Assembly: GCA_948567375.1 (NCBI GenBank)
Contig: OX419761.1
Coordinates: forward strand, 21,614,243-21,678,242
DNA: 64,000 bases
Origin: Lunularia cruciata
Taxonomy: Eukaryota; Streptophyta; Marchantiopsida; Lunulariales; Lunulariaceae
Direction: 5' to 3'
Translations under genes and position numbers: made by a program
In this document: piece by piece, positions 4,301 through 52,084 of the stretch
Numbering within the stretch: position 1 is the stretch's first letter
Layout of the letters: each line of letters starts with the position of its first letter
Notes under the pieces: model-generated
What the model saw: the letters and a program-made list of their open reading frames with translations, nothing else
Told to the model about the DNA's origin: nothing
Databases searched by the model: none

Positions 4301-4951
4301 TGTGACAACCCGACAAATATCACCTTTGCGGTAATCAGGTAAGTAAAGTTCATTCTCGCAGAGATACAATTCAAAATTGGTCAAATTCAAAGTCAAATAG
4401 TAACATGTAGTTCTTCTTGGGTTCCTCTTTAATCTCTCAGGTAGAAACTACACCCAGAAGAGAGTAACAAGCTCACAATTTTGACAACTTATCATGAATT
4501 CACACACTCATAATCACCCAACATAACAAATTCTGTCCAAATAAATCTTGATTATGATGATTCAGATTCTTCCAAAGACGGCACTTCACTGCAAAAACGA
4601 CTTTGCCTCAAAATATGTTCCACCCTTCCACTAAAGGCACAACTTCCTTGATCAAAATTGATTCACATCAACTCAATGTTGCACTCACAAATGCAGAATA
4701 CTACCAACACTACAATTCCTATTAGATCTATCAGGGCATTGCTTTGATTGCACTTCACTCAAGATCAAACACATAGAATGAAGATCAAGGCTGCAAAATC
4801 CAACAAACACACTGACTTGCACTTCAAATTTCTCCATACACTCACAAACCCACTTGGAATTAAACTTAAGCAACAAGCACCAAAATCAGCACTTTGCTTT
4901 ATCTTTCTTCCAAAATATGAATATTGAACAACATTTTACTACAAATGCCTC

Positions 4952-4961
4952 CTTTAAATAG
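4952..4961 (-). promoter_or_regulatory. TATA-like box of A-prime solo LTR 1
   Basis: On the minus strand the sequence reads CTATTTAAAG, at the place equivalent to CTATTTAAG in the A2 LTRs. It lies downstream of the end of the protein frame, so the frame is inside U3. Confidence 0.5.
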
Positions 4962-5078
4962 TGAAGCAAATGACAATTATCTAGCAACTATACCATTCTA
5001 TAACAACTCTTTCTACCTATAGATCCAAAATGACAATGTACCTCTTCATATCTGCCTCTTCAAATCTCAAAACTATTA

Positions 5079-7610
5079 CTACTCCGATCTAATGTCAACC
5101 TTGACTTTGGCTCCCAAACCAGATGATCCCTTGATAATTTCACCATCCTTGGGTCTATCTAATCCTACTCCTAACTCTTCTATTTCTATGATTTCTTCAC
5201 TACAAACTACAATTGAGGTCTCAGGTAATCTTTCTAACTTGGTATCTCTTGACACTCTTCTCTAAAGGTTTAGAGAACAACCCCAAAAACACCTATACTT
5301 CTACTTCTACAACTTTGGGTCTTTTTACATCTTGTACCTCACTATAAAGTTTATCTAAATCCGTTCCAACAAGATCTAGTCTGAGAAACACATTGTCTCC
5401 TACCTCTAACATCTTCTTGTCTACACGTTCTTGTAGATGAATTAATAAGTTATTCAACTCCATGTCCTTTGCCTTTCTCTTGTGCATCTTTTGCACCAAT
5501 ACCTTTAGCTCATACAATCTTGCCTCCTCAAAATTACCTTCAACTTTTGTGCTCAGCATTGCCTTGATTTCATTGACTACTCTGACTACCTCATCAACTT
5601 CTCCTACAACCGCAAGCTTCTCCTTCTTCCTTTCTTCCTTCAATTCACTACGATACATCTGGAGCTCGTCTTCAAATTTGGCCTTCAATGCCTCCTTCTC
5701 CCTCCAATTCACAAAGATTTGCTCCTTTGCTGCCCACACCAATCCTCGCAACCAATCTTCTTCTCTACCGTGCTCTGCTAACTCTTGCTGCTAGGCTTGA
5801 TCTTTCTCCCCTGCTCTCTTCTTGAGACTCTCCAACTCCTACTCCATCACCGCTGTAATTGCTTTCAAGTGGATTAAGTCGGGCCAGGCATCTACAATTT
5901 CCCCCTTGAACACTGCAACCAATGCGGCCATCTCCTTTGCCTCCTCGTGACTCTTTACTAGATCCTCCCTCATCACCTCAAAGTGCTTACTCCAAAGAAC
6001 CTCCTCAACCCAAAGTTCTTTGGCTTCCATCTCCACCCTCGTCAACTTACTTCGCAACAATGAGGTTTCTGCACTCCAGGTCTTCACTACTACCAACTCA
6101 TCACACACCTAAAGATTGGCACTTACCATCTCCATCTTCTTTTTCTATAGAAACATCAACAATGGACATACTACCTTCAATAGATATTCCACTCCTTTGC
6201 ACTTCCCGTCATCGGCTTGGCCTTCAGGTTCCAACCACTCTACTTCTTGCACCTTGCCCCAAAGTTACAATCTTCATACTTTCAAAGTTTCTTCCTCTGA
6301 GCTTTCCTCCTCTTCCATGGTAACTTTACTAGGCCCCACTTTGGCTACAATCATAATGTTCTTCTCCTTGGTAGTTTGAGTTTGTGCCACAACTTCCTCT
6401 CCCTTCTTCTTCTCACTTCCTTGTTCAAGCATAGAAACTTTGGGACTCGGCTTTCTTGCCTCAACCATCAGCCTTTGTGTTTGCTGAACCTCTACCTCAC
6501 CTTCATTATCACTGCTTGATTTTTCACTTTGTAGTGTGAACTCCTCTTCTTCTCCTAACATTTCTTCCTTCAATCTAGTTTCTCCTTCCAACTCTCTTTT
6601 GATTCTGGCATGGCTTCCTTTGTCTTCACCATCACCACCTTTGGGTTAAGCTTCGGCACTTTCTGGCATTGGATTGTTGCAACATGACTCTCAAGCTTGG
6701 CTCTCTTTCTAGCAATTGGAAGGTCAATTGCTACAATTTTCTCCTTCCCACCCTTCTTGTAGTACTCATCCCCATCTTGCACTCTCTCCATATAATATTG
6801 CTCATCTACATTTGCCTCCTTCTGCAAATCCGGATGGAAGTGAGAGCGCATTTGATTTCTTTCTTCCAAGGTCAGCAAGTTCAACCCAAAATAAAAGTGC
6901 ACTATGAAGGGCACAAAATAATGTAGTGGCATATCCATTCTCCACCCCAAAATCATCTGCCCCACTCTGTGATGCAAACATTTTGCCCAATCTATTGCTT
7001 CTCTTGCAAACATTTGGTGCAAGAACACCGCCTATTGCATAGTAACATAGGTGGTTTGCTTTGGCTTGAACATTGCCATCATTGCGCTTACTATCTCTCT
7101 TTGCTTGGGGTCTCTATAACTGTCCACCTTATACCCATTCTTGGTGCAAGGTTGATTGAACAAATTCCTCACTTTGGCAATCTCTTTTGAAGCATCACAC
7201 TTCTGATGGAAGGTGGTACCACCTATCTCTCCTACTTCTCTTCCCAAAACTACTCTCCAATCTGCCTCTGTCCATCGAGCTAGATTTACTCTCTTCCTCT
7301 TATGCTTTGGTCCATCCTTGCAATTGCTCATTGCAATTTCTACCATGAAAGTTGGAAAACTGAAGTTCCAATTCCAAGCCAGGAACGTGATACAAAGTCT
7401 TGTCAAGACTTCAATCCACATTATTAATTTTAACCTATGAATTACAAGCCCCCTCCCGCACTCTACTTACTCACTTTTGGGGTCATTGTGTGCTTCTTCA
7501 CCTTCTTCTTGTGGAAGTTCTTGAGATCCTAACCCACTCCTCTTCCTACGGATTACAATTTGCATTACTTTGGGTCGACTTTGAATAGGAACTAGGTAGC
7601 AACTGAACAT
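5079..7610 (-). pseudogene. U3-borne ORF remnant in A-prime solo LTR 1
   Basis: Read on the minus strand from the ATG at 7608-7610, this region is collinear with the intact A1 frame. It keeps the motifs ITFLAWNWN, WTEADWRVVLG, KNGYKVDSY, a block with VHFYFGLNLL and RSHFHPDL, and then a Lys/Glu-rich coiled coil ending in VDIRSE and a stop. It is broken into at least five open stretches (7421-7032, 7028-6570, 6591-6274, 6108-5839, 5751-5293) by stops and frameshifts. Its sequence differs widely from the A1/A2 proteins yet shares the core residues, so the frame is older than the split between A and A-prime. Function is unknown. Confidence 0.75.
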
Positions 7611-8036
7611 TGCTCTACTTCCTTGCACAACTTGTAATTTTATAGTCCTGCCCCGATCTGTCATTCTTCAGTTGCTCTTCCTCTCTAGTCTCCATTTCGT
7701 GAAAATGTTTCATGTCACTATCAAGAACTTCTTGATCCCAAGGTCATTACTTTTTTTCCCCGTACTTTCTTGATTGGGCCAACTCCGAAGAAGTTTGTTA
7801 TAGGTTCTTCAGATCAGATCACACCGCTCGATACAAAGTCTCACCTTCTTCTTCTTTGTCTTTGTCTTTGTCTTTGTCGTTATGTCTCCTTTGATCTTGA
7901 CCCAAGGTCAACTTCAAGTTTACTCCAAACCCTTGCTTCTTCTTATTTCTTCCCGGTTTAGCCCTCTTTAGGCTTTACCCATGTACTTCTTCAAATTTTC
8001 CTAAAACTATCCAAAACAAAAATTATGGGTACCACA

Positions 8037-8927: not shown

Positions 8928-9780
8928 GTGTATCCCTTGTGTGTTATGGATTTTGCACCTAAGCCAGAGGTTTTGAAGGACCCAGATAAATCACCATTGA
9001 CACTTGAGGAGATAGAGAGGAGGTTATCTACCCTCAAGTATGGTCCAAATGTTACCAAGGAGAAGAAGGTGAGATTTGATGAGACTTTCCGCAAGTTTAT
9101 CCATGTGTTTGCTTTTAGTTACAAGGATTTGAATGAAGTCACCTTGGAGGAGCACAAGATAGAGGTGGAGTCACATGCAAGACCAATCCACCAAAAGCAA
9201 TGTTGCATTAGCCCACCAATATCTTTAGTTTTGAAGGAGGAGATTGATAAGCTCAAGGAGGCTGGATTTATCTTTGAGGTGGAGAATTCAGAATGGGTGT
9301 CTCCAATTGTCATTGTGAAGAAAAAGAATGGCAAGCTTTGGGTATGTGTGGATTACAAGAAGCTCAATGTTGCTACCAAGAAGGACTACTACCCATTACC
9401 ATTCATTGATGAGACCTTTGGGAAGGTTGTAGGTCATGAGAGGTATAGTTTTGGAGATGGTTATAATGGATATAACCAAATCAAGATTGCACCAAAGCTT
9501 CAACAACTCACCACATTCACCACACCGTGGGGACTTATGCTTTCAAGGTCATGCCTTTTGGGCTTTGTAATGCTCCAACCACATTCCAATGGTTCATGAA
9601 TAAGGTATTTGAACCTTTCATTGGGAAATTTATGAGATACTTCATTGATGACTTTTGTGTCTATGGGAGCAAGGAGGAGCACTATGAGTACCTAATCAAG
9701 GTCTTGCAACACTTGGATGAGGCAAATGCATCACTCAATCCATAGAAGTGCATTTTTGGATGTGAAGAAGGTCTACTTTT
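8928..9780 (+). pseudogene. pol: B1 reverse transcriptase
   Basis: The RT domain is clear. The frame 8928-9599 holds the entry segment and SEWVSPIVIVKKKNGK, VCVDYKKLN, DYYPLPFIDE and YNGYNQIKIAP. The frame then shifts near 9527, and the second frame (9527-9745) holds VMPFGLCNAPTTFQ and the catalytic FIDDF (YxDD box equivalent). LGHIIS follows after a stop. RT copies the element's RNA into DNA. LCNAP wording is typical of OTA elements. At least one frameshift and several stops separate the pieces. Confidence 0.9.
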
Positions 9781-10680
9781 GGGGCACATCATCTCCAATG
9801 ATGGAATAGTAGTTGATCTTGAGAAGGTGAGGAAAATCTTAGACCTTCCATTCCCTTCAAGCTTGACAAAGTTATGTCAATTTTTAGGGATGGTTGGGTA
9901 CTATAGGACGTTCATCTTCTCATTTTCCAACAAGGCTTATGCATTGATCATAACATGAAGAAGGGTGTAGATTATATGGTGATTTTGTGAGGACAAGGAA
10001 GCTCTCAAAGCTTTTGAGGAGCTCAAGCAATCCCTTGTTGTAGCTCCAATTCTTGCTAAACCTGATTGGAGTAAGCCTTTCATCCTCTACACTGATGCTT
10101 CTATTGTAGCTATAGGATGCACTCTTAGTCAATTAGGCCAAGATGGGCATGATTATCCAATAGCTTATGCTAGTAGGTAGATGGTTTCAGCAAAAAAGAA
10201 CTACTCTATCATGGGAAGAGAGGGTTGGCAATGATCTTTGGTCTCAAGAAGTTTAGACACTAATTGATTGAAGGGAAAGCCACCATTGTCACAAATCACA
10301 AGGCTATGAAGTACATCTTCAATAGGTGTAATGTTGAAGAGAGACTAGCAAGGTGGATGATACTCTTGTCTGAGTATGATTACACCATTGAGGATAGGTT
10401 AGGAAAGAAACATGCAAATGCTAATTTGTTATCTAGGGCTTATGGTCATGATGGAGATGAGCCAGTGGATGATTTGTTCTCGGATGAGGAGCTCATGACA
10501 ATCTCAGTCACTCAAGAGGTTCCAATGGAGTACAAAGAGATTGTGGATTTTGTGACAAGAGGTAACTATCCAGACAGGATGCATGCTAGGGAGAGGAAGG
10601 TCCTTGTAGCAAGATCTAGACCTTACACAATGGTGGAGGATATTCTTTTTCACCAAGGAGCAAATGTTCTACTTTGAAGA
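9781..10680 (+). pseudogene. pol: B1 RT thumb and RNase H
   Basis: After LGHIISNDGI the sequence shows the connection domain (LDLPFPSSLTKLCQFLGMVGYYR) and RNase H: FILYTDASIVAIG has the first catalytic aspartate, and YPIAYASR and VTNHKAMKYIF follow. The segment 10264-10677 includes the last RNase H motif and the linker to integrase, ending at a TGA. RNase H degrades the RNA strand of the RNA-DNA hybrid. Multiple stops interrupt it. Confidence 0.8.
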
Positions 10681-11843
10681 GCAGTGGGTAAGGAAGAGTC
10701 TATCCTACTCATAAAGGAGTTTTATGAAGGTTTAGTGTGTGGAGGACACTTTGCAAGAAAGGTGACTTTGCTTTCAAGATTCTAGATGCAAGTTACCATT
10801 GGAGAGGGATTTTCAAGGATTGTCTTGATTATTGCAAAACTTGTCATGCTTGTCAAGCTTTTGCTAGAAAGTCTACTTCCACTCCACCACTTAGATCAAT
10901 TACATTGTTAGGACCTTTTGAGAAGTGAGGAATTGATTTTGTAGGTCCTAATAATAGAAATCCAAGGAAAAATTGGTATATTATGGTAGTTATTGATTAT
11001 CTTACCAAGTGGGTTGAGGCTAGACCATTGAGGGACAAGAATGAAGATGAAGTTGGGAGATTTCTTTATGAACGCATCATCACTAGGTTTGGATGCCCTT
11101 TGGAGTCGGTTTCTAATAGATGAGGAGAGTTTACAAGAAGCATTACTACAGCCATGCTACGACATTTCTCTATCACACATAGAGTAACTACATCCTATAA
11201 GCCAAATTCCAATGGCTTGGTAGAGAGAACCAATCAGACCTTGTGCATGATGTTGGCCAAAGATTCCAAAATGGAGGGGGCTAAACATCATTGAGATAAG
11301 AAGATTCATGCAGTTTTGTGGGAGTATAGGACAACCATAAAGACTTCCACCGGATGTTCTCCATTTTGATTGGTACATGGTATTGAGTCTACCTTACCTA
11401 TTCACTTTGATCTTCCTATCTTCCATAGCATTCATACTAGATTGAAGAAAGCACAAGGAGGTGATGCAGAGACGTCAAGGAAGGGTCAACTGATGGAATT
11501 AGAAGAGGCAAGAGTAGTTGCTATGGTTTGAGTGGAGCAAGCCCAAAGGAAACAAAAGGAGAGCTATGACAAGAGGCAAGGCAAGAAGAAGGTGGAGCTT
11601 TTCAAAGAAGATGATTGGGTAACTTTGTTTGATTCCATTTGATTCAAGAGTGCAAAAGAAGTTTTTACCCTAAACTTTGGACCTTTCATAGTGGAGAAAG
11701 TGTGGGGCAATTACACCTATAATCTCAAGGAGTTGGGAAGAAGACACTTTGATAGGATCAACCATGATAATTTTGAGATGTATCATAGAAGGTAGAGAGA
11801 CCTTCACTTTGAGGAAAAAGTGAAAACTTAGTCCGAGGGTAAA
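10681..11843 (+). pseudogene. pol: B1 integrase and PPT
   Basis: The zinc-binding part includes YCKTCHACQ (10830-10860). The core begins with GIDFVGPNNRN, has DYLTKWVEARP, and then the second acidic site in a decayed form (VSNR, where the better-preserved B3 copy has VSDRG). The third acidic residue is in NGLVERTNQ. A C-terminal domain with KEDDWVTLF follows. Integrase joins the cDNA to target DNA. Stops lie near 10926, 11121, 11292 and 11368. The last bases before the LTR, GAGGGTAAA, are the likely polypurine tract. Confidence 0.85.
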
Positions 11844-11866: not shown

Positions 11867-12535
11867 TGTGACAACCTGGCAAATATCACTTTTGTGGTAA
11901 TTGGGTAAGTAAAGTTTGTTCCCGCAGAGATACGAGTCAGAATTGGTCAAATATGAAGCAAAGTAACAATTTCAGTTCTTCTTGAGTTCTTCTTTAGTCT
12001 CTTAGGTAGAAACCACACCCAGAAGAGAGTAACAAGCACTGACTCGCAGTCTTAAAACAAATTCACTCTCCTTAATCACAAATCCTTCAATTCTTTCCAA
12101 ACAATCTTGATTGTGATGATTCAGGCTCTCCTGAAAATGGCACTTCACTGCAAAACAACTTCGCCTCAGAATTGTGTTCTACCCCTCCACTGAAGGCACA
12201 ACTTCCTCGGTTGAAATTGCTTCACATCAACTTTGCATTGCACTCACAAATGCAGAATACTACCAACACTACAATTCCTCTCAGATCTGTCAAGGCATTG
12301 CTTTGATTGCACTTCACTCAAGATCAAACACACTTAATGAAGATCAAGGCTGTGGAATCCCACATCCAACAAGCACTCTGACTTGCACTTCTAATTTCTC
12401 CAAACATTCACAAACACAATTGCAAAGTTGATACTTGGAATCAAGCTCAAGCAACGAGTACTGCTTCACAGCACTTCGCTTTATCTATTCTCAGAAATAA
12501 TGAGCACTGAACAACAATTTCCTACGAATGCCACT

Positions 12536-12544
12536 CTTAAGTAG
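12536..12544 (-). promoter_or_regulatory. TATA-like box, A1 3' LTR
   Basis: The minus strand reads CTACTTAAG, matching CTATTTAAG in A2 and CTATTTAAAG in A-prime at the same relative position. It marks the likely U3/R border and lies after the ORF stop. Confidence 0.5.
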
Positions 12545-12660
12545 TGAAGCAATAGACAGTTCTAACAACTATACCATTTCTACAACAACTGTCCTAACCT
12601 ACAGATCCGAATTAACAATGCACCCCTTCATATTTGCCCCTTCAAATCTCAAATCGGTTA

Positions 12661-15219
12661 CTAATCCAATCCGATGTCTACTTCTTTGGCTTTCAAACCC
12701 GAACCCGAAGTAATCTTACTTCCTACTACATTTTCCTTGGGTTTCACATCTCCTACATCTTCTACCAGATCCAACAATTCTCTTTCCTGATCTGAAATTG
12801 CACTAGTGGGTAATCTATCTAACTCTTCATCCTTCGACCCACTCTTCTCTAATGTCTCTGAGGTCAACTCCAAAGACATTTGGATTCCTATGTTATCTAC
12901 TTTGGGTTTTGCCTTAACATCCTGCCGAAGCTTTTCTAACTCTATTCTCACTAAGTCTAATCTAATCGCAATATTGTCTTCTACTTCTAAGATCTTCCTG
13001 TCTACATGAGTTCTAAGACTAATCAACAAGGCATTCAAATCTGTATCTTTTGCTTGTCTTCGCCTTGTCTCCTGCACCAACAACTTCAACTCATGCAACC
13101 TTGTTTCTTCAATCCGAACGATGGCTTCTGTACTTAACATTGTGTTCACTCTAAGGACTATCTCCTTCAATGGCTCCAATCTTGTCTTTTGTTCTTGTTC
13201 CCGATCTGCAAGCCATTCCTCTCTGTACATCACCAACTCTTCTTCAAACTCGGCCTTCACCGCTTCCTTCTCTTTCTCCTTCTGTACAATTTTCTCTTCC
13301 TGATTACGAAGTAACTCTTGTAATCTCTCTTCTTCTCTATACCGCACAAACAACTCTCTTTGCCAGAGTTGCTTCTTTTCCTCCATACTCTCCATCACTC
13401 GATTGAGCTCTTGGTCCTTTGATGCTACCCTTGCCATAGCAATGATAAGCTCTACTCTTGAATCAGCAAATTGCTGCTTCAAGATTTCAAATTCAGCTAC
13501 TTGTCTCTCCCTTGTAATGTCACTTTTCCTCGCAAGATCCTCTTGATAGCTCACTTCTCTCTTCAGGTCTTTGATTACCTGACTTCTCTCTACAGCTTCC
13601 GCTTGCAGTACTTCTCTCTCCTTCTCACCTCGGGTTATACTCTTCTTCAACTCTGGGTTTTCTTCTTCTAATATCACTACCACCTGCAATATAGTCTTTA
13701 CCTCTGGACAAGTTGACTGCATCTCCTTCTTCCTCTTCTCCAACTTCACCAATAGCGGGCATACTACCTTCTGCAGGTACTCTACTCCCTCACTGGCAAC
13801 TTCTTCCTCCCACGGAGTAATTTTGTGTTTCTCCTCATGTTCTTCTAATACGCGCCTTTGTTGCTGAAGTCTTTGTATCGGAATTGATGCCTCACTACTC
13901 GTGCTATCTTCTGCATCTGCTTTCACTTTACTCGGCCCCGCCTCACACTTCGCCTTACGTCTCAAGCGAACTCCTCGCTGTACTGCGATCTTCTTCTCCT
14001 CGAGCACCGGTACTTCGTCTTCCAGCGCCGCATTGTCTTTGGCTTGCACTTCTTCTTTGTATTCTTCAGCCGCTGGTGCCGAGGTCATTTCTCCACCGTC
14101 TTCACTTTCAGTGCTAGTATCTCCACTCTGCAGTGTCAGCTCAGGTTCCTCCTCACGTTCCGAGTCCTCTGTCTTGAGCTCAGCTTCGCCTTCTGAGTCT
14201 TCATCTTCCGACTCAATCACCACCATCCCTCGCCTCAGGTTATGTTTCCACATCTTCCGAGGTTTCTTGTTTTCTTTGGCTTCTACGTGCCGAGTTCTCT
14301 TCTTCCTTGTGGTACTTACCACGACCTCCACGTTTTTCCCTGTCTTCGCATAGTAGTAGTCCGTGCTCCGGATTTGGAGAATGTATTCCTGCTCCTCTGC
14401 GTCGACTTCTCTTCTCAAGTCAGGATGGAAATGAGACACCATTCTATTGCACTCTGCCAAATTGAGCAAATTCAACCCAAGGTAGAAATGTGTTGCAAAT
14501 GGAACGATGTAGTGTGGAGGCGACTTATCCCGTAGATTCCACACCATCTGCCTTGTTCTCCTATGAAAGCACCTTGACCAATTGATTGGCTCTCCTGCAA
14601 ATAACTTGTGAAAGAACACAGCTTGGTGTTTCATCACATAAGTGGTTCTCTCCGGCTTCAGGATGGCCATTAGTGCACTCACAATTCCTCTCCTCACAAG
14701 GTCTTTGTAGCTCTCAACTTTGTACCCATTCTTCGTTCTCTTCGACGAGAAGGCATCTCTCACCTCCTGCGTTTCTTGGGCTATCTCTCCTTTCCACAAG
14801 AACGTGGCTCCCTGCTCCGAACCCGCCTCCTTCCCGAGTACGAGTCTCCAATCCGACTCTGTCCAGCAAGTCGGATTTCCTCTCTTCCCTGCTTCCTCGG
14901 GCCCATTGAGACACTTACTCTCGATGATTTCTGTCATGAATCCTGGAAAACTTACATTCCAGTTCCATGCTAGAAAGGTGATCCGAAGTCGGCTCAAGAC
15001 TTTGATCCTCGCTACTACATCTAATCTCCAAATTGCATGATTTCTCACTGCAAAATTAGAGTTTTTCTTCCCTCCTCTCATCTCTTCTGCTTTCTTACTG
15101 TCTCTTGATTTCTCTCTCGCGACTTCTCCCTTGCGCACTAACCTGAGTACAACTTTATTTCCCTTTCCCCGATCACCTGCAAGACAACTTCTCAACGGCA
15201 AAGGAAAATTGCTCGACAT
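12661..15219 (-). CDS. U3-borne ORF of 852 codons, unknown function
   Basis: This is the only fully open copy of the LTR frame. I start it at the ATG that opens MSSNFP, shared by all A-family copies. I do not recognise the family. Visible parts: a conserved N-terminal domain (about residues 70-290) with ITFLAWNWN, WTESDWRLVLG, KNGYKVESY, KPERTTYV, HFYLGLNLL and VSHFHPDL; a Lys/Arg patch (about 303-330) that could be a nuclear localisation signal; an acidic Ser/Glu stretch (about 334-376); and a long Glu/Lys/Arg/Leu coiled coil (about 500-780). I see no signal peptide or membrane segment, so an Env-like role is not supported. It lies upstream of the TATA-like box, hence in U3, and in the 3' LTR it follows integrase directly. 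A Gag-like assembly, RNA-binding or chromatin role is possible but unproven. Confidence 0.8.
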   Translation of the reverse strand: MSSNFPLPLRSCLAGDRGKGNKVVLRLVRKGEVAREKSRDSKKAEEMRGGKKNSNFAVRNHAIWRLDVVARIKVLSRLRITFLAWNWNVSFPGFMTEIIESKCLNGPEEAGKRGNPTCWTESDWRLVLGKEAGSEQGATFLWKGEIAQETQEVRDAFSSKRTKNGYKVESYKDLVRRGIVSALMAILKPERTTYVMKHQAVFFHKLFAGEPINWSRCFHRRTRQMVWNLRDKSPPHYIVPFATHFYLGLNLLNLAECNRMVSHFHPDLRREVDAEEQEYILQIRSTDYYYAKTGKNVEVVVSTTRKKRTRHVEAKENKKPRKMWKHNLRRGMVVIESEDEDSEGEAELKTEDSEREEEPELTLQSGDTSTESEDGGEMTSAPAAEEYKEEVQAKDNAALEDEVPVLEEKKIAVQRGVRLRRKAKCEAGPSKVKADAEDSTSSEASIPIQRLQQQRRVLEEHEEKHKITPWEEEVASEGVEYLQKVVCPLLVKLEKRKKEMQSTCPEVKTILQVVVILEEENPELKKSITRGEKEREVLQAEAVERSQVIKDLKREVSYQEDLARKSDITRERQVAEFEILKQQFADSRVELIIAMARVASKDQELNRVMESMEEKKQLWQRELFVRYREEERLQELLRNQEEKIVQKEKEKEAVKAEFEEELVMYREEWLADREQEQKTRLEPLKEIVLRVNTMLSTEAIVRIEETRLHELKLLVQETRRRQAKDTDLNALLISLRTHVDRKILEVEDNIAIRLDLVRIELEKLRQDVKAKPKVDNIGIQMSLELTSETLEKSGSKDEELDRLPTSAISDQERELLDLVEDVGDVKPKENVVGSKITSGSGLKAKEVDIGLD

Positions 15220-15631
15220 TTCGTCATTGCAGTTTCAATTTTTTTAGAGTTGCACTTCTTCGTCTTCCATTGCTTTGAGTTTTTACCGAGAAATCACACC
15301 TCCTGCATGCACCTGTCACTGTCAATCAACCTTCGCACGTATGAGCCGCCAGTTTTGAAATGGCCCCTTCTTGAATTTCTCACCCCGACAAAAGGTTGTT
15401 AGACTGTCTTTGCCTCGGGTTGAGCTCCCCCTGATCCGAAGACAATTTACTTCGTATGGTATGCTGACAGGGCATTTCCGAGGACTTTGCCTTATGACCC
15501 GAAGTCACTTTACTTCGGGTTTCATCCCAAAGACACTTTTCTTCGCCTTCTTCGGCCATACAGGCGCAATCCGACCTCTCTATACACTTCTTCTCCTTTA
15601 TTTTTAAAAAACAAAAAATGTGGGCACCACA

Positions 15632-15645
15632 TACCCCCTCCCTCA
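15632..15645 (-). other. A1 polypurine tract overlapping the pol stop
   Basis: On the minus strand TGAGGGAGGGGGTA runs into the LTR start. The TGA at 15643-15645 is the pol stop, so coding sequence ends inside the plus-strand primer site and leaves no room for a gene between pol and the LTR. Confidence 0.85.
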
Positions 15646-16794
15646 AATGTGAGCATCCCCGCGAACATAGACCTTGGGTGTCTTAGAAACTTCCGAGTCT
15701 ATGGTCTAATATCTCCGCACTCTCCACCCGTTTACTCAAGTGGCAAAAGGATTACCTTCCAAATCGACGAGTTGCATGGATCCATTTTCGTAAAGATGAA
15801 GAACTTGATAGCGACCCATCCATCTCAAATGCAACTTGCCTGGAAAAAATATTCGGCGATTGTCATATAACAAAACCAAATCCCCTTCTCGTATAGTCAC
15901 AGGCTTGATTCTCTGATTGTGCCTGACTTTCCTCTGTGCTTGTACTTCTTTTGTGGTTTGCATTGCATCGTCTCTTTTCTCTTCTAACCACATCAGTTGA
16001 TGAATCCAAAGATCTTGACTTTCTTCTTCCAACATCCATTCTTTGCATAGAACTCGATTTGTCGGAACTTCAAATTCAATTGGTAGTATGGGATGCAAGC
16101 CATATGTCAAGAAGTATGGGGTTTGTTTGGTTGTAATCTTCTCTGTCGTTCGATATGCCCACAATGCGGCTGGTAATTTTGTATCCCAATCATAGGCATA
16201 ATTGACAATCACCTTATTCAAAATTTTACAAAGTAACCCATTCGCTTTTTCCGTTAAGCCATTTGCTTTTGGGTTATAAGGAGTCGTCTTCCGATGTTTA
16301 ATCTGAAAATACTTGGTTAACGCCTCCATTACATAGCTCAAAAAATGTGTTCCTCGGTCACTGACCAATTCCAGAGGACACCCATATCGGGAGATGATGT
16401 TTTGAAAGAAAAATTCCGCCACAGTTTCAGCATCATCTCTGCGAGTTGCTTCCGCTTCAACCATCTTGGTAGCATAGTCAGTGCAAACCAAAATGTAGCG
16501 CTTTCTTGTGACTCGGGTCACTGATTGAATGGGACCCACAAAATCAATCCCCCATTTCTCAAAGGGGGCCAAAGGCAAAATTGGTCTCAAAGGCCATTGA
16601 GAAGTAGCCGTTGGCTTCCCCGTTCTCTGACACACATCACAGCTTTGGATATGAGCATGTACATCTTTGTACATTGTAGGCCACCAATACCCTGCCGAAA
16701 GAATTTTCTTTACAGTATTCTTCAGAGCATAGTGTCCTCCCGATGCCTCAGAGTGTAAAGATTCAATTACTCCTCCTACTTCGTATGACTCCAA
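15646..16794 (-). pseudogene. pol: A1 integrase
   Basis: The open stretch 15736-16794 (352 codons) holds the HHCC zinc domain (HSEASGGHYALK, then CDVCQRTGK), the DDE core with GIDFVGPIQ, LVSDRGTHF and the glutamate in NGLTEKANG, and a C-terminal domain with REGDLVLLYDNR and WMGRYQV. Integrase inserts the element's cDNA, here into 5-bp staggered targets. All three core acidic residues are kept, unlike in A2. A stop near 15733 and another near 16796 break it from the flanking coding sequence. No chromodomain is visible. Confidence 0.9.
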
Positions 16795-16797
16795 GCA

Positions 16798-18894
16798 TCA
16801 CCGAAGTACTTCGTCTTCGCCCATCTTAAATAAAATGTTGTGTTTAAGCTGGTACGGCCCCATTTTCCTGAGAAAGACTGCCCGCTGTTCCGGATCCATC
16901 CCCTTAGGACAATGGAGAGTATTCTGATAATTATATTCATCTGCATACCTCATACTTCTTGTTGCCGATAAGTGATACAACTCTTTGTCAGGGAACCGAT
17001 CGTCAATTTCCCACTCCTGGTCTTGAGTTTCTAACCTAGACAGGAAGTACGCATCCAAATGCAAAGCTCCCTTCCTCACTTGTACAGTATACGTGAATTC
17101 TTGTAATAACAAGATCCATCTTGCAATTCATCCTGATAAATCTGCCTTCTTGACCAGATGTTGCAATGCATAATGGTCAACATAGAAGACAAACTCATAC
17201 CCCAACAAATAATGACAAAATTTCTTGCAGGCATACACCATTCCGAGTGCTTCTCTTTTAGTCGTCGAACAGTTCTTTTCAGAAACTGAAAGTTGTCGGC
17301 TGGCATAATACACCGGGTAGTCCTTCTTCTTCTTGTCCTTCTGACTTAAGACAACCCCGATGGCCATGGACGAAGTGTCCACATACACATGAAAAGGGAC
17401 GTCCCAATTTGGGGCCCTCATGACTGGTGCTTCAACCAGTTTCTTCTTCAACACCTGGAAAGCTTCTTCTTGATGTGCTTCCCATATATAGTCTTCGGAT
17501 TTCTTCAAAAGCTTTGTAAGTGGTGCAGCAAGCACTGCATAGTTTGACACAAAGCGTTTGTAATATCCGACATGTCCCAAGAAGGCTCTTAGCTCCCGGA
17601 TGTTCTTCGGGGATTCCAAAGCTGCGATTATCTTAACCTTCTCAACATCAACTTCAATACCTCGGCTTGACACCCGATGCCCCAGAAGAATTCCCTCCTT
17701 CATTGCGAAGAAGCATTTCTCCGGGTGTAATGCCAAGCCGGCAAAACGACACCTTTCAAACGTTTGGCGAAGGTAATCTATATGTACATCTCTTCTCCCA
17801 AACACACAAAAGTCATCAATAAAAACTTCCACAAATTTGCGCAAGAAATCCTTGAAGATCAAATTCATCATCCGTTGGAAAGTAGCGGGAGCATTACACA
17901 ACCCAAAGGGCATTTGATTGTAAGCAAAAGTGCCCCAATCGGTCGTGAATGTAGTTTTATCCTTGTCTTCTTCTCGAATGGATACTTGATTGTACCCTGA
18001 AAATCCATCAAGAAAACTATAACAAGGATGCCCAGCTACTTGATCTAAAATTGTATCAGTAAAAGGCAAGGGATGATGATCTTTCCTTGTAATTGCATTC
18101 AATTTTTGGAAGTCTTGGCACACTCGGATCTTCCCTATTTTCTTCTTCGGGAAAATGACAATGGGGGAGACCCATTCACTGCTTAAGATAGGGAAGATGA
18201 TTCTGGCCCCTAAGTACTTATCAATTTCATCTTTCACCAAAAGCGAGTACTTCGGGTTCAGGCGGTATTGTCGCTGCCAAACCGGAACTGCACCCTCAAC
18301 CAAATCAATCCGGTGTTCTCCGAATTCTCGTGGAATACCCGGCGTTTGATCAATCGACCAGGAAAATACATCTTGGAACCCTATAAACAGGGCAGTGTAT
18401 CCTGCCAACTCCTCCGAAGTAACTGTCTTCAAGATCTTTAAAAATTTTCCTTCAGTTACTAACACCTCTTGACAGTCATCGGGGTTGATGACTCCTTCAA
18501 CGTGGCTTACTCGGCTTATCCCGAGGCAAGCGGCCATCAAACCCCCTTCCTCTAAGTCAGGTTCACCCGAGGTGAGGTCATATGGATCTTTGTCGTCAAC
18601 CTCTACCTCGTAGCATTCCAAGTAATTAACTTGGACTTCTTCTTCGGATTTGTCTGAAGATGAAGACGATGAGTCTTCGGATTCGTCTTCCTCTTCTAAT
18701 GAACTTGTTTCCCCAAGATGGGGAACCTTCGTCCAACTCACAGTCACCAGCTTCTGATCTTTGGACAAAATGTCCTTGAATCTTAACTTCTGTTGATGCC
18801 AATCTACTACAACTTGGGCACTATACAACCAGGGTCTGCTGATCAACAGAGGGTAACCAGTTTTTGTCACAGGCCGCAACACGATGTAATTCAA
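16798..18894 (-). pseudogene. pol: A1 reverse transcriptase and RNase H
   Basis: A long open stretch (17128-18894, 588 codons) starts after protease. It has an acidic Ser/Glu linker, then RT with SEWVSPIVIFPKKK, VCQDFQKLNAITRKDHHPLPF, MPFGLCNAPATFQ and the catalytic FIDDF (about 17808-17823), then LGHRVSSRGI, the connection domain, and RNase H with FHVYVDTSSMAIGVVLSQ, YASRQLSVSEKN and VDHYALQHL. The last RNase H and linker part continues at 16798-17112 after a stop. LCNAP and the tRNA-Asp primer place it with OTA elements. RT and RNase H make the cDNA in the particle. Confidence 0.92.
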
Positions 18895-19623
18895 CTTGAA
18901 GGGTACCCCTCAAATGATCATGGTAATATTCAACAGCATGCCCAAGGGCCGTCTCCTGGTTTGGTCTGCAAACTTCAAAACTCAAGGTGTTGGTTCAAAC
19001 ATATGATACCCGAGTCGATTCGCCGTATCTTCGGTCATGACATACACACCGGACCCAGAGTCAATGGGTATCGATGTGATCATGCACCCTGCAATCTCCG
19101 TGTCTACCTCGGGAGATCCCAAATCTGCTTGTTCAATACGATAAATAGCAGGCAGGTCCTTCTTTGACATCGACCTCACCTTCTTGAGGGCCAAATTAAG
19201 CTGTCTCTTGTACAGCTTGTTATCTTCCCACAATTGCTTAAATGTAACATTGGCATTTGTGGTGGCCAGATTGGCTACAATATCATATTGGGGAACTCCT
19301 CCCAATTTGACCGTCTTCGTCTTCGGCTTTGGGTCCGAGGACCCTCCATGTTCCCTCTTGACTTCGGGACGCTTCAAAATGGTGACGGGCTTGCTGATGG
19401 CCTTAACCCGAGCTTCCTCGGGTTGGCCCACCTCGGCTTGGATCAGACCCTTTACTTCGGATCGGATGTCCACCGGAAAAATTGGAGACTTCGTCTTAGT
19501 CTCTTCTTCCAAACTCAGTTCTCGAGTCCTGAGTAATGCCTCCGTTAATTCTTTCTACAAGGCTTAAGCTTTAGCTTTCACGAGGATCTTTTCCTCCTTG
19601 GCCAAAAGAATGGCTTTTGGGCA
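18895..19623 (-). pseudogene. pol: A1 aspartic protease and upstream linker
   Basis: The open stretch 18982-19512 includes IPIDSGSGVYVMTED, with the Asp-Ser-Gly active site, and the NRLGYH strand. The rest of the protease (GVPFKLNYIVLRPV, PLLISRPWLYS) continues past stops at about 18988 and 18909. Upstream, between the gag UAG at 19624-19626 and 19512, two more stops (19549-19567 region) interrupt the linker where A2 is open. Retropepsin of this type matures Gag-Pol. Confidence 0.85.
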
Positions 19624-21714
19624 CTATCTCTTCGCCTTTTGGGAAGACAACGAGGTCGTACTCAGTTCTTTGGGATCACGCTTTTTCTTGCTGGAGCATG
19701 TCTCAACTTTCAAAACTTCAAGGTCTGGCCATTCTCCTTCTGAGGCAGGACTCCCTTCTTGAGGTCTTTCTTCCTCAAGCGTAATACAATTTACATTCGT
19801 ATCCCCCTTCGGCTGAAGTGCTGCACGCTCAGCGAGGGTCTGTACATATTTTACAGGAGGCTTCGGGTTTGGCGGGTGAGGGCATTGGTTGCCCGTATGC
19901 CCCGATCCTTTACAATTTCTATACAAGGGAACGTACCCAATTTGCCTTCTTGGCTCGGGACAATTTGGAGACCAATGTCCCATCGAGCCACAATTATAAC
20001 AGGCTCCGGGCGCAACATTCTGAGGGCAATTTTGGTTGCTCATTGGTGGTCTTTGTGAAGGAGCATTGGGGTTATACTCCTTGGGTCCAAACCTCGGACC
20101 TTGATACGATGTGCTTGGCTGAGGCTGTACTTCCTGAGTTTGGTACACCGCCTCTTCGTCCTCGTCTTGGTTCCATCCCAGAACCCAATCAATCTACTAC
20201 ACCGGGAATGCATTACAAGTATTGCATTCTGTGTTGGCGTGGCCGGATTTGCCACATGCGGTGCACCACACATTAGATCGTCCAAATGCTGGGGCCTTTC
20301 TTCGGTCCTTAGTCCCAATCATCTGGATCTTAAAATCCAAAAACTCCTTGATGAGGGCATCCAGCTTCGTATCTGCCTTATGTACACTCTTGGCTGGAGG
20401 AGTCATTGGTTTCTTGCCTCCATGTCTTCTGACTCGTCTTGGCTTTGATTCTTCTTCGGATTCCGAAGAAGAGCTCAAAGACGTAGAGGATTCGTCCGAA
20501 GAAGGGGAGGTGCTACGCAAAGCTCTCCTTCTAGGCTTCTTGCCCTTCTTCTCCCGATTTCTCTGGTTACCGGTAGAGTGAGAGTGGGCCGCTTCATAAC
20601 GAGCGACATGTTTGAGTACTTTGTCCAGGGAAGTTACGTTCCTCTCCTTGGCAAAGATTTGTATCTCTGGTGAAAGGCCCCCGAGGAACCAGGTAATGGC
20701 TTGGGCATCGGAGTATCCCACCACCCCCGATTGCTTGGGAACTCGGTTCAGTAGTGCCATGAACCGCTCAGAGTAGTCCCTCAACTTCTCCTTCTTGCCC
20801 CGGTCCAAATCATTGAGTGCCGCGAAGACACTCGTATCATAGTCAACCTCCCGGAATCGTTCTAGGAAGTTGTTTCTCAAGTCCGCCCAGTCCGATGGTA
20901 CAAACCTCTTTTGAGTCACATGGGTGTACCAGCTCCAAGCTTTCTTGCGGAGCAGACCTGGGAAAATTCTCAGTCAATCCGCCGAGTCATGCTCCTTGTT
21001 AGCAAAGGAGATGACTTCAAATTCTTCAATGAATTCATCGGGGTCTTTGTCTTGTTCTGTCCCCTTATACTTCTAATAGGCATGTCGGGTGACAGGGAGC
21101 AAAGTCATCGTTTGATGCACTGGGATCGGCTAAGGTAATGTGGAACTTGACGGAACGGAAGGATTGACTGGAATTGACGCCGTATTGTCAGCCCAAGGAT
21201 TCCAATTCGTCAAATTCAAGGTAGGGTCTTCTTCAACAATTTCTACTGTGAGGGTGTCGACTTCAACCTGAGTGGAAGATTCAGGATCAACACCTTTGAT
21301 GGGTTCTTCAAAATTCCTACGGGACAACCGAGGAATCATTCATAGAAGATATTGACACTCATCTTCCGTACGTGTTCGTGCTGTCTTTTCTTGAACAAAG
21401 GTCTTCAAGGACACAACTTCCTTTACAGCTCTAGGGGAAGTTGGTGTATTGGGCCGTAATGCATATGTTTGCCCACTCGATTCTTTCTTCTTCTTGGAAG
21501 AAGAAGGAGATGCGAAGTAGCCTTGCCAACCGCCTTTGTGTTTCTTGTGGTCAAGTTCTCACAGGGCTTCTTGCACTTCGTGAAGGAGTTGAAACTCCAA
21601 CGCCTCTCGTTCAGTTTTGTCAACGATGGATGGGACGTTTAGACGTTCGTCTTCTTCACGCTGAAGTGCTTGTCTTTGAGCTCTCTCTTCCCGTTGTTCT
21701 TTCAATGCAGACAT
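19624..21714 (-). pseudogene. gag: A1 gag, capsid and three zinc knuckles
   Basis: The Gag start is the ATG at 21712-21714, opening MSALKEQREERAQ, 88 bases after the LTR. The N-terminal part is charged. The capsid domain (20197-20919) reads PSDWADLRNNFLERFREVD, LRDYSERFMALLNRVP and ITWFLGGLSPEI. A Ser/Arg-rich stretch follows, then three CCHC knuckles: CTACGKSGHANTEC, CYNCGSMGHWSPNC and a third one with Arg in place of the first Cys (RNCKGSGHTGNQC). Stops near 20195, 20967, 21074 and 21338 and a frame break before 20148 inactivate it. It ends at UAG 19624-19626, the same stop as in A2. Confidence 0.9.
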
Positions 21715-21777
21715 TCATATTGCGTTGATACCCAGTTTCCAATTTGGCTTTGTATTCTTCCACTTCCAAGATTTGTA

Positions 21778-21795
21778 TCCCCGGCAGCGGCGCCA
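21778..21795 (-). other. A1 primer-binding site, tRNA-Asp
   Basis: The minus strand reads TGGCGCCGCTGCCGGGGA, seven bases inside the 5' LTR end. It is complementary to the 3' end of plant tRNA-Asp except for one position (C in place of T). The same variant is found in A2. Confidence 0.85.
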
Positions 21796-21802
21796 AAAAT
21801 CA

Positions 21803-24800
21803 TGTGACAACCCGGCAAATATCACTTTTGCGGTAATCGGGTAAGTAAAGTTCGTTCCCGCAGAGATACGAGTCAGAATTGGTCAAATACAAAGCAAAGT
21901 AACAATTTAAGTTCTTCTTGAGTTCTTCTTTAGTCTCTCAGGTAGAAACCACACCCAGAAGAGAGTAACAAGCACTGACTCGTAGTCTTATCACAAATTC
22001 ACACTCCTTAATCACAAATCCTTCAATTCTTTCCAAACAATCTTGATTGTGATGATTCAAGCTCTCCTGAAAACGGCACTTCACTGCAAAACGACTTCGC
22101 CTCAGAATTGTGTTCTACCCCTCCACTGAAGGCACAACTTCCTCGATCGAAATTGCTTCACATCAACTTCGCATTGCACTCACAAATGCAGAATACTACC
22201 AACACTACAATTCCTCTCAGATCTGTCAAGGCATTGCTTCGATTGCACTTCACTCAGGATCAAACACACTTAATGAAGATCAAGGCTGTGGAATCCAACA
22301 TCCAACAAGCACTCTGACTTGCACTTCAAATTTCTCCAAACATTCACAAACACAATTGCAAAGTTGATTCTCGGAATCAAGCTCAAGCAACGAGCACTAC
22401 TTCACAGCACTTTGCTTTATCTATTCTCAGAAATAATGAGCACAGACCAACAATTTCCTGCGAATGCCACTCTTAAGTAGTGAAGCAATTGACAGTTCTA
22501 ACAACTATACCGTTTCTACAACAACTGTTCTAACCTACAGATCCGAAATAACAATGCACCCCTTCATATTTGCCCCTTCAAATCTCAAATCGGTTACTAA
22601 TCCGATCCGATGTTTACTTCTTCTTTGGCTTTCAAACCCGAACCTGAAGTAATCTTACTTCCTACTACATTTTCCTCGGGTTTCACATCTCCTACATCTT
22701 CTACCAGATCTAGCAATTCTCTTTCCTGATCTGAAATTGCACTAGTGGGTAATCTATCTAACTCTTCATCCTTTGACCCACTCTTCTCTAATGTCTCTGA
22801 GGTCAACTCCAAAGACATTTGGATTCCTATGTTATCTACTTCGGGTTTTGCCTTAACATCCTGCCAAAGCTTTTCTAACTCTATTCTCACTAAGTCTAAT
22901 CTAATCGCAATATTGTCTTCTACTTCTAAGATCTTCCTGTCTACACGAGTTCTGAGACTTATCAACAAGGCATTCAAATCTGTATCTTTCGCTTATCTTC
23001 GCCTTGTCTCCTGCACCAACAACTTCAACTCGTGCAACCTTGTTTCTTCAATCCGAACGCTGGCTTCTGTACTTAACATTGCGTTCACTCTGAGGACTAT
23101 CTCCTTCAATGGCTCCAATCTTGTCTTTTGTTCTTGTTCCCGATCTGCAAGCCATTCCTCTCTGTACATCGCCAACTCTTCTTCAAACTCGGCCTTCACC
23201 GCTTCCTTCTCTTTCTCCTTCTGTACAATTTTCTCTTCCTGATTACGAAGTAACTCTCGTAATCTCTCTTCTTCTCTATACTGCACAAACAACTCTCTTT
23301 GCCAGAGTTGCTTCTTTTCCTCCATACTCTCCATCACTTGATCAAGCTCTTGGTCCTTTGATGCTACCCTCACCATAGCATGGATAAGCTCTACTCTTGA
23401 ATCAGCAAACAGCTGCTTCAAGATTTCAAATTCAGCTACTTGTCTCTCCCTTGCGATGTCACTCTTCCTTGCAAGATCCTCTCGATAGCTCACTTCTCTC
23501 TTCAGGTCTTTGATTACCTAACTTCTCTCTACTGCTTCCGCTTGTAGTACTTCTCTCTCCTTCTCACCTTGGGTTATACTCTTCTTCAACTCCGAGTTTT
23601 CTTCTTCTAATATCGCTTCCACCTGCAATACAGTCTTTACCTCTGGACAAGTCGACTGCATCTCCTTCTTCCTCTTCTCCAACTTCACCAACAGCGGGCA
23701 TACTACCTTCTGCATGTACTCTACTCCCTCACTGGCAACTTCTTCCTCCCATGGAGTAATTTCATGTTTCTCCTCATGTTCTTCTGATAAACGCCTTTGT
23801 TGCTGAAGTCTTTGTATCGGAATTGATGCCTCACTACTCGTGCTATCTTCTGCATCTGCTTTCACTTTACTCAGTCCCGCCTCACACTTTGCCTTACGTC
23901 TTGAGCAAACTCCTTGCTGTACTGCAATCTTCTTCTCCTCGAGCACCGGTACTTCGTCTTCCAGCGCCGAATTGTCTTTGGCTTCTACTTTGGCTTGCAC
24001 TTCTTCTTCGTATTCTTCAGCCGCTGGTGCCGAGGTCATTTCTCCACCATCTTCACTGTCACTACTAGTATCTCCACTCTGCAGTGTCAGCTAAGGTTCC
24101 TCCTCACGTTCCAAGTCCTCCGTCCTGAGCTCGGCTTCGCCTTCTGAGTCTTCATCTTCCGACTCAATCACCACCATATCTCGCCTCCGGTTATGTTTCC
24201 GCATCTTCCGAGGTTTCTTGTTTTCTTCGGCTTCTGCATGCCGAGTTCTCTTCTTCCTCGGGGTACTTACCACGACCTCCACGTTTTTCCCTGTCTTTGC
24301 ATAATAGTCGTCCGTGCTCCGGATTTGGAGAATGTATTGTTGCTCCTCCGCGTCGACTCCTCTTCTCAAGTCAGGATGGAAATGAGACACCATTCTATTG
24401 CGCTCCACCAAATTGAGCAAATTCAACCCGAGGTAGAAATGTGCTACAAATGGTACGATGTAGTGTGGAGGCAACTTATCCCACAGATTCCACACCATCT
24501 GCCTTGTTCTCCCGTGAAAGCACCTTCCCCAATTGATTGGTTCTCCTGCAAATAACTTGTGAAAGAACACCACTTGGTGTTTCATCACATAAGTGGTTCT
24601 CTCCGGCTTCAGGATGGCCATTAGTGCACTCACAATTCCTCTCCTCACAAGGTCTTTGTAGCTCTCAACTTTGTACCCATTCTTCGTTCTCTTCGACGAG
24701 AAGGCATCTCTCACCTCTTGCGTTTCTTGGGCTATCTCTCCTTTCCCCAAGAACGTGGCTCCTTGCTCCAAACCCGCCTCCTTCTCGAGTATGAGTCTCC

Positions 24801-25582
24801 AATCCGACTTTGTCCAGCAAGCCGGATTTCCTCTCTTCCCTTCTTCCTCGAGCCCATCGAGACACTTACTCTCAATGATTTCTGTCATGAATCCTGGAAA
24901 ACTTACATTCCAGTTCCATGCCAGAAAGGTGATCCGAAGTCGGCTCAAGACTTCAATCCTCACTACTACATCTAATTTCCGAATTGCATGATTTCTCACT
25001 GCAAAATTAGAGTTTTTCTTCCCTCCTCCCATCTCTTCTGCTTTCTTACTGTCTCTCGATTTCTCTCTTGCAACTTCTCCCTTGCGCACTAACCCGAGTA
25101 CAACTTTATTTCCCTTTCCCCGATCACCTACAAGACAACTTCTCAACGGCAAAGGAAAATTGCTCGACATTTTGTCATTGCAGTTTCGATTTTTATAGAG
25201 TTGCACTTCTTTGTCTTCCGTCGCTTTGAGTTTCTACTGAGAAATCACACCTCTTGCATGCACCTGTCACTATCAATCAACCTTTGCGCGTATGAGCCGC
25301 CAGTTTTGAAACGGCCCCTTCTTGAATTTCTCGCCCCGACGAAAGGTTGTTAGACTGTCTTTGCCTTGGGTTGAGCTCCCCTCGATCCAAAGACAATTTA
25401 CTTTGTATGGTATCCTGACAGGGCATTTCCGAGGACTTCGCCTTATGACCCGAAGTCACTTTACTTTGGGTTTCATCCCAAAGACACTTTTCTTCACCTT
25501 CTTCGGCCATATAGGCGCAATCCGACCTCTCTATACACTTCTTCTCCTTTATTTTGAAAAAACAAAAAATGTGGGCACCACA
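21803..25582 (-). repeat. A1 5' LTR
   Basis: This LTR is 3780 bp, adjacent to the primer site, so it is the 5' LTR. It is collinear with 11867-15631. A TATA-like CTACTTAAG lies at 22472-22480 on the minus strand, downstream of the U3 frame. Confidence 0.95.
22597..25170 (-). pseudogene. U3-borne ORF in the A1 5' LTR, three stops
   Basis: This is the partner of the intact frame at 12661-15219, with the same start (MSSNFP, 25168-25170) and a matching end (NIGSD and stop at 22597-22599). Three in-frame stops break it: TAG at 24091-24093 (a Glu codon in the intact copy), TAG at 23518-23520 (Gln) and TAA at 22993-22995 (Gln). The remaining sequence is in one frame. The copy sits upstream of the element's own promoter, so it is not part of the genomic RNA. 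The TAG at 24091 is also found at the same codon in the A2 5' LTR. Confidence 0.85.
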
Positions 25583-25587
25583 ATGTG

Positions 25588-26260
25588 TGTGGTATTATGA
25601 TACTTTTCTTAGTATTACAAACACTTGAGAGATATTATTTATATAGAGATAAAGGATGGTTCTACATTAGTCATGATTAGCTAAAGTTAGTCATAGCTAA
25701 GATAGTGGGGACCTTACTTTAGAGGAAGTGGAAAATATGAGCACCACTATTTTGAATTCTAATGTGCTGACTTGGTATTATTTATAGGTGTTTGGCTTTG
25801 AGGAAAGAGTTGAGAACTCTTGGGCCTGCAAGCCTTTTTATTTTGGATTCTTGTATAGTCCAAGGATATAGCCAATGTGAAGGAATCCTTGACTTAGTGG
25901 TTGGGTCAAGATAAGATCACATGCTTAGTGGAATATGCCTATGTGGATGAATATTCCTTTATACTTTTTGACTTTATTTGAATTTTAGCCTAGTAACTTG
26001 AGTTACTTTAGTAATTAGTAACTTTGGTGTGTAACTATTTTACAAGTATATAAACTAGGGGTGAGGAGGTACTCATCATCCTTTCATTTGCAACTATCTC
26101 TCTCTCTCATTGAGTTCTATAGTTAGCAATGCCTTGAGTCCTGGAGTGTTAGCCTTGGAGGAGTATAATGGAGGTGGGATTCCTTGCCTTCTTAGTCCAT
26201 GGTGCGCTACCATAATAGCCATCAGAGGTTCATCCCAAGTGAAAGATAGGCCAGCTCATA
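25588..26260 (+). repeat. B1 3' LTR, second piece
   Basis: After the duplicated ATGTG (25583-25587) the B LTR resumes with TGTGGTATTATG and runs through the TATA box near 26047 to CCAGCTCATA, where the final ACA has become ATA. GAGC follows at 26261, matching 1558-1561. A CT-repeat in the leader (TCTCTCTCTC near 26097) is longer than in the 5' LTR. Confidence 0.9.
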
Positions 26261-38829: not shown

Positions 38830-38884
38830 TGTGACAACCCGGCAAATATCACTTTTGCGGTAATCGGGTAAGTAAAGTTTGTTC

Positions 38885-42828: not shown

Positions 42829-43250
42829 TGCTCTACTTCCTTGCACAACTTGTAATTTTATAGTCCTGTGCCGATCAATCATTCTTCAGTTTCTCCTCCT
42901 ATCCAATATCCGATTCAGTGAAGTTGGTTCCTGTCACTATCAAGGACTTCTTGATCCCGAGGTCATTACTTTCTTCCCGCGTACTTTCTTGATTGGACTG
43001 ACTCCAAAGAAGTTTGTTACAAGTTCTTCGGAACCGATCACGCTGCCTGATACAAAGTCTCTCCTTCTTCTTCTTCATCTTTGTGTCCTTGAGTTCTACT
43101 TCGTGTCTTGACCTGAGGTCGACTTCAGGTTTTACTTCAAACCGCCGCTTCTTCTTATTTCTTCCCGGGTTAGCTCTCTTTAGGCTCTATCCACATACTT
43201 CTTCACATTTTCCTAAATACTATTCCAAAACAAAAAATGTGGGTACCACA

Positions 43251-51968: not shown

Positions 51969-52084
51969 TAACCGATTTGAGATTTGAAGGGGCAGATATG
52001 AAGAGGTGCATTGTCATTGCGGATCTGCAGGTTAGAACAGTTGTTGTAGAAACGGTATAGTTGTTAGAACTATCGATTGCTTCA

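Follow-up and report, generated by a model that had tools for sequence, protein, structure and literature searches.

The long terminal repeats of a Ty3/gypsy element in this plant genome contain a protein-coding gene under purifying selection about as strong as that on gag and pol. The frame of 852 codons runs from ATG to TAG on the minus strand, from 15219 to 12661 of the window (the whole 64-kb stretch of DNA analysed), in sense with gag-pol. It lies wholly within the 3' LTR of element A1 (15631-11867), starts 412 bp into this LTR, and stops about 120 bp upstream of a TATA-like CTA(T/C)TTAA, as a preliminary description of the sequence had claimed for both the full sense-strand frame and its seat upstream of the box (12536-12543). 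With 48 and 77 stops in the other two sense frames of the same stretch, the frame is open far beyond chance. Its assignment to U3 follows from the TATA-like box, which would mark the end of that region. We give a probability of roughly 0.5 to the reading that the frame is a third gene of the element, seated in the U3 of the LTR, expressed from the 3' end of the genomic RNA, and encoding an oligomeric nuclear accessory product.

Ty3/gypsy elements and LTR types in the window

Element A1 shows an LTR pair, TG..CA ends, a 5-bp target-site duplication (TSD), a primer binding site (PBS), and a polypurine tract (PPT). Gag, protease, reverse transcriptase (RT), RNase H, and integrase are present in the Ty3/gypsy order, with the protease match below its cut-off. 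Its two LTRs are 94.6% identical, with the ends TGTGG..TCACA, and the TSD CACAT flanks the insertion on both sides. Neither a chromodomain nor a second (aRH) RNase H, both of which are absent from the Athila clade, was found in a piecewise scan of the broken frames, in which a degraded domain could be missed. The features of the window are as follows.

4301-8036, minus strand: type C LTR, 3736 bp, apparently solo, flanked by GCTTC and ACTTC with four of five bases alike (alignment)
7610-5254, minus strand: collinear frame in the type C LTR, nine stops (tblastn)
11867-15631, minus strand: 3' LTR of A1, 3765 bp, TGTGG..TCACA, TSD CACAT (LTR comparison)
12536-12543, minus strand: putative TATA-like box after the frame, CTACTTAA in A1 and CTATTTAA in A2, B, and C (sequence only)
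12661-15219, minus strand: U3-resident gene (P0001), 852 codons, open in the A1 3' LTR (frame and selection tests)
15632-15644, minus strand: polypurine tract GAGGGAGGGGGTA, immediately before the A1 3' LTR (sequence)
15632-21802, minus strand: internal region of A1 with gag (Retrotrans_gag, CCHC knuckles), RT, RNase H, and integrase; several broken frames (domain matches)
21778-21795, minus strand: primer binding site of A1, TGGCGCCGCTGCCGGGGA, after the 5' LTR (sequence), which we take to be tRNA-Asp-like
21803-25582, minus strand: 5' LTR of A1, 3780 bp (LTR comparison)
22600-25170, minus strand: frame copy in the A1 5' LTR, protein 91% identical, three stops (tblastn)
39576-43250, minus strand: type B LTR without its last ~51 bp (alignment)
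42828-40326, minus strand: collinear frame in the type B LTR, broken (tblastn)
48979-62714, plus strand: element A2, a second insertion of the family, inverted relative to A1, TSD CCTAT (LTR comparison)
48979-52762 and 58932-62714, plus strand: LTRs of A2, 97.8% identical (LTR comparison)
49395-51965, plus strand: frame copy in the A2 5' LTR, 82% identical, two stops (tblastn)
59348-61917, plus strand: frame copy in the A2 3' LTR, in two pieces (86% and 78% identical), five stops and a frameshift (tblastn)

The LTRs of types B and C start with TGTGGTACCC. No tRNA genes were found in the 64-kb window. The overlap of the pol stop with the PPT, as previously described, exists in A2, where the integrase frame continues to a TGA inside the tract (58918-58920), but not in A1, where it ends at 15736, leaving about 100 bp to the LTR, and does not reach the PPT.

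A1 and A2 were inserted about 110 bp apart in one target repeat, which apparently derives from a different gypsy family and comprises its pol end and LTR; its pol pieces have 30-55% identity to those of A. Pieces of this repeat are present at 1557-2246, 9033-11756, 25583-26261, 38880-39573, 48203-48884, and 62715-63995; the type B LTR also abuts it.

The frame is shared among LTR types and under purifying selection

In tblastn searches, the protein matched the remaining three A-family LTRs of the window collinearly and over its full length (78-91% identity); in the more distant LTRs B and C, the collinear copies are broken, and the matched pieces have 31-51% identity. The proteins of A and C are 36-44% identical, and the ATG and TAG occupy the same aligned positions in A, B, and C. 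Two of 24 copies, those in the 5' LTRs of A1 (24091-24093) and A2 (50472-50474), carry a stop at one shared position, between EEEP and LTLQS, despite the marked divergence of the two elements.

The dN/dS ratio between the frames in the 3' LTR of A1 and the 5' LTR of A2 is 0.232 over 853 codon columns, which are interrupted by only two indels (12 and 3 nt). By comparison, the other two sense frames yield 0.86 and 1.32, and the antisense frames 0.91, 1.49, and 0.37; the last is, we think, a shadow frame having third positions in common with the U3 gene. The values for the internal region of the same two elements are 0.39, 0.29, and 0.45 for pieces of gag, 0.31 for protease-RT, 0.21 for RT-RNase H-integrase, and 0.39 for the integrase end.

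Because decay in the A1 LTR pair is transition-biased (105 transitions vs 24 transversions in the frame), neutral evolution was simulated with a transition and CpG/CHG bias at the divergence of A1 and A2 (five settings with 200 runs each). Mean dN/dS ranged from 0.54 to 0.84, and the lowest of the 1000 runs reached 0.36. The share of differences at third positions did not exceed 0.44 in the simulations, whereas that observed between A1 and A2 is 0.51. Within an LTR pair, only decay is expected. The A2 pair has a dN/dS of 0.73; the value for the A1 pair (0.366) is borderline, as the minimum of the 200 neutral runs exceeds it in one of the five settings and is just beneath it in the other four.

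A set of 24 copies (20 from the genome and four from the window; 276 pairs) has a median dN/dS of 0.317 (0.18-0.73) and a third-position share of 47.5%. Constraint is tightest at residues 140-220 (0.14) and loosest at residues 1-60 (0.56) and 780-852 (0.47). Since the genomic copies were ranked by protein score (ranks 3-19 of 53) and three more were picked for few stops, their dN may be lowered, a bias that does not apply to A1 vs A2. Together, these ratios speak against the near-neutral dN/dS that the preliminary description had named as a finding that would discredit the gene; it had named the absence of a collinear frame from other family members as another, and the frame is present in the A family as well as in B and C.

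All 12 type C loci that were fetched, the best of 150 scored matches and including the type C copy of the window, yield median values of 0.365 for residues 60-320 and 0.437 for the entire protein (66 pairs). Silent sites are saturated between A and B/C (dN about 0.5); dN/dS between B and C is 0.40.

At silent sites, A1 and A2 have diverged by 0.39 in the U3 gene (12661-15219), but by 0.12-0.17 in pol and most of gag and by 0.24 in the capsid piece. This inequality suggests that the LTR and the internal region may differ in history, e.g., by recombination between subfamilies.

Copies in the genome and in solo LTRs

The U3 protein was searched against the whole genome (565.8 Mb in 74 contigs). 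Among the 53 scored matches of type A, only two are free of in-frame stops, one of which is the query itself; most frame copies of the A family (51 of 53) are therefore broken. All 20 fetched copies are located in an LTR, which in each case begins about 410 bp ahead of the frame and extends beyond its stop, and no relative of the gene was seen outside an LTR among them. Four are accompanied by the pol/PPT side (3' LTRs), three by the PBS side (5' LTRs), and 13 by neither. Both exact LTR ends were located for ten of these 13, each a single LTR of 3.76-3.78 kb surrounded by a perfect 5-bp TSD, which, together with the lack of PBS or PPT alongside, identifies them as solo LTRs. Solo LTRs keep the frame at full length, but each of the 13 copies, including the ten solo LTRs, contains one to nine stops. 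The view that the frame is doubled at every insertion and persists in solo LTRs is borne out by its presence in both LTRs of A1 and A2 and in the ten solo LTRs with TSDs. A separate lineage of solo LTRs was considered and rejected, as the 13 copies are mixed with element LTRs on the tree (seven changes; mean of shuffled trees 8.2, with 129 of 500 shuffles as low).

Genome-wide, 34- and 35-base patterns (up to two mismatches) detected 7,619 LTR ends and 992 LTR-PBS junctions, with no matches in the controls; the patterns mark ends rather than the presence of the frame in each LTR. If one junction represents one element with two LTRs, such elements account for about 2,000 of the ends, and some three quarters of all ends would come from solo or truncated LTRs, a share that would fall if junctions with more mismatches existed.

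The search for type C returned 150 scored matches. One type C element has an LTR pair and ends with the same PBS and PPT as A, and an LTR start precedes the frame in 11 of the 12 fetched loci, one of them partial. At L041 and L044 (G000:C6, about 10.723-10.737 Mb), the type C element appears by eye to lie inside another copy of the U3 frame, which reads as a nested insertion of the LTR class into itself. A second frame match lies near five loci of the A family (L009, L010, L013, L018, and L026).

The U3-encoded protein

The protein consists of a conserved domain (residues ~60-300), a basic patch, an acidic stretch, a helical-looking half, and a conserved tail. The net charge is +11 at residues 301-330, which by appearance resemble a nuclear localization signal, and -21 over residues 331-390. 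Of the features named in the preliminary description, the N-terminal domain and both kinds of charged patch are confirmed; its long coiled coil corresponds to the helical C-terminal half, where the heptad bias is strong at residues 481-536 but weakens or is missing in other parts. With a maximum hydropathy of 1.13 over 19 residues, the protein has no transmembrane segment.

No Pfam family scored above its cut-off, neither with the whole protein (E up to 1) nor with its parts (E up to 10); residues 70-320 likewise had no homologue at E 1 among 587 candidates, and the whole protein none at E 0.001 among 8000 scored candidates. These protein searches cover proteins of 0.55-1.75 times the query length having short words in common with the query. 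The negative result nevertheless has some weight, because the same collection returned 4242 relatives of pol at E 1e-10. The best 120 of these include proteins from Riccia sorocarpa, Marchantia, and seed plants; the top matches are Riccia sorocarpa proteins (73% identity over the full length for the first), and a match from Marchantia has 66% identity over 37% of the query, so that a thalloid liverwort is the most probable host of the element. A phmmer search of the PDB found no match to the product at E 1. Scans with the N-terminal 340 residues detected no relative among viral and prokaryote contigs, nor did a scan with the RT piece among viral contigs. The suspicion that the frame is a displaced piece of gag or pol is not supported: the product has no similarity to the gag/pol pieces of its own element (hhalign probability <=0.5%).

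Several weak matches were rejected, namely, PF23671 (E 0.022, below cut-off) and PF10020 (E 7.4) to parts of the protein, a PHROG match (E 0.21), and seven distinct sequences of unrelated kinds from PDB profile searches (all E >=0.4). A possible resemblance of the segment FFHKLFAGEPINW to Transposase_32 proteins was not borne out by PF20167. Identity with TRP28 (PF04195) or Transposase_32 (PF20167) was rejected, as neither family matched the whole protein at E up to 1 or its parts at E up to 10; a genome search with PF20167 gave no match, and its controls were silent too.

Expression and possible function

In LTR elements, the promoter lies at the end of U3 in the 5' LTR, and transcripts include a U3 gene only where they run into the 3' LTR. 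Since the frame precedes the likely transcription start in the 5' LTR, the copy in the 3' LTR would be the one expressed, through the 3' end of the genomic RNA or a spliced RNA originating there. The same copy would template both U3 regions of a new insertion, as in retroviral replication, where both are derived from the 3' LTR. As with MMTV sag, the copy exposed to selection would thus be that in the source element's 3' LTR.

The DNA identity between A1 and A2 is 88-89% in the first 412 bp of the LTR, 87% in the frame, and 93-95% in the region after the frame. The higher conservation of the latter (11867-12660 and its counterparts in A2, B, and C) relative to the frame DNA in A1 and A2 points to the main promoter and leader in this region, for which such conservation is expected. 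Inspection by eye of the sequence upstream of the ATG showed no invariant AG that might serve as a splice acceptor, and a scan for bacterial promoters after the frame gave two sites vs 1.4 expected.

The product is most likely an accessory coiled-coil protein, predicted to be made from the 3' end of the genomic RNA. With less certainty, it would be oligomeric and, judging by its charge pattern, nuclear, and it may act on the RNA, DNA, or chromatin of the element. As to its origin, the gene may once have been an extra ORF between pol and LTR; if the priming site of the plus strand came to sit upstream of such an ORF, the LTR would have swallowed the gene.

Alternative interpretations

That the frame is open merely by chance, in LTR DNA that is regulatory or purine-rich, would agree with the purine-rich coding strand and the stops in most copies, but is extremely improbable in view of a dN/dS well below that of the other sense frames and the neutral minimum, a third-position share beyond the simulated range, and the collinear pieces in B and C. 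It is also very doubtful that the gene is env-like in the sense of a surface or movement protein. The env-like position proposed in the preliminary description is correct in that the gene is in sense and follows integrase in the genomic RNA, as do eORF-3'F and env-like genes; the resemblance ends there, as the product has no transmembrane segment and its basic-acidic-coiled-coil layout is not suggestive of a membrane protein. Capture of a host gene by the element (transduction) is quite unlikely: the lack of homologues in Pfam, PDB, and protein searches leaves room for an unsampled host gene, but the divergence between the versions in A and C means that such a capture would be old, and all 20 fetched copies are in an LTR.

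It is rather unlikely that each LTR is a self-contained gene unit, with a promoter in the first ~410 bp that drives the frame and with solo LTRs that express the protein and affect the family in trans, to its benefit or detriment. The large excess of LTR ends over LTR-PBS junctions and the full-length frame in solo LTRs with TSDs would fit such a unit, but the first 412 bp of the LTR are hardly more conserved than the frame, the best conserved region follows the frame, and stops occur in each of the 13 copies without PBS or PPT. An extended version, by which every LTR, including the thousands of solo LTRs, would be a mobile gene unit whose trans-acting U3 protein controls replication, silencing, or insertion of the family, and by which solo-LTR formation would yield stand-alone gene copies, is speculative and has a similarly small chance of being correct.

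Comparison with other LTR elements

LTRs are usually regarded as regulatory and non-coding, and extra genes are sought between them. Among the titles and abstract beginnings of the openly licensed literature, we found no plant LTR with a coding frame; the excerpts cited below place extra ORFs in the internal region or beside the polyprotein. The host gene inside a retrotransposon in the excerpts of PMC1560396 is a distinct case. The U3 gene is a variant of the plant LTR element with an extra ORF, set apart by its seat inside U3.

Like the eORF-3'F and env-like ORFs of plant OTA and SIRE elements, the U3 gene is an extra ORF that follows integrase in sense. In the excerpts of PMC7264820 and PMC6317226, such ORFs are mostly without database domains and of unknown function, and they are located in the internal region or downstream of the polyprotein. 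By contrast, the U3 gene is not situated between pol and the 3' LTR, as an eORF-3'F would be, but starts 412 bp inside the LTR, and it lacks the transmembrane segment of an env-like gene. The antisense TRP28 (PF04195) ORF of Retand is likewise a conserved accessory gene 3' of pol, for which a regulatory role in nucleic acid binding is suggested in the excerpts of PMC11963269; according to them, it is located between pol and LTR, whereas the U3 gene is in sense, within the LTR, and without a match to PF04195. Retrosat2, RIRE3, and RIRE8 share with the present family the combination of giant LTRs (~3 kb or more) and an extra ORF, but their ORF0, of unknown function in the excerpts of PMC3485330, is situated upstream of the gag-pol ORF and not in U3. 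A single well-defined protein such as that of the U3 gene makes the function of the extra ORFs of plant LTR elements testable.

A close parallel is the sag gene of MMTV, which is encoded in sense in U3 and present in both LTRs. Both cases involve a full protein gene in sense in the U3 of an LTR, whose end is deduced from the TATA-like box in the present family. The excerpts of PMC11998498 describe sag as subject to purifying selection and recombination, with some positively selected sites, and its product as a type II transmembrane protein and superantigen. The U3-encoded product differs in having no transmembrane segment, and MMTV is a retrovirus, whereas the U3 gene resides in a Ty3/gypsy element of a plant. 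A U3 gene under selection similar to that on pol, and belonging to a class of LTRs of which this 566-Mb genome has thousands of ends, would imply that a solo LTR can be what is left of a gene. The plant element would have an accessory-gene layout, with a gene in the LTR, that to our knowledge is otherwise represented only by a few animal retroviruses.
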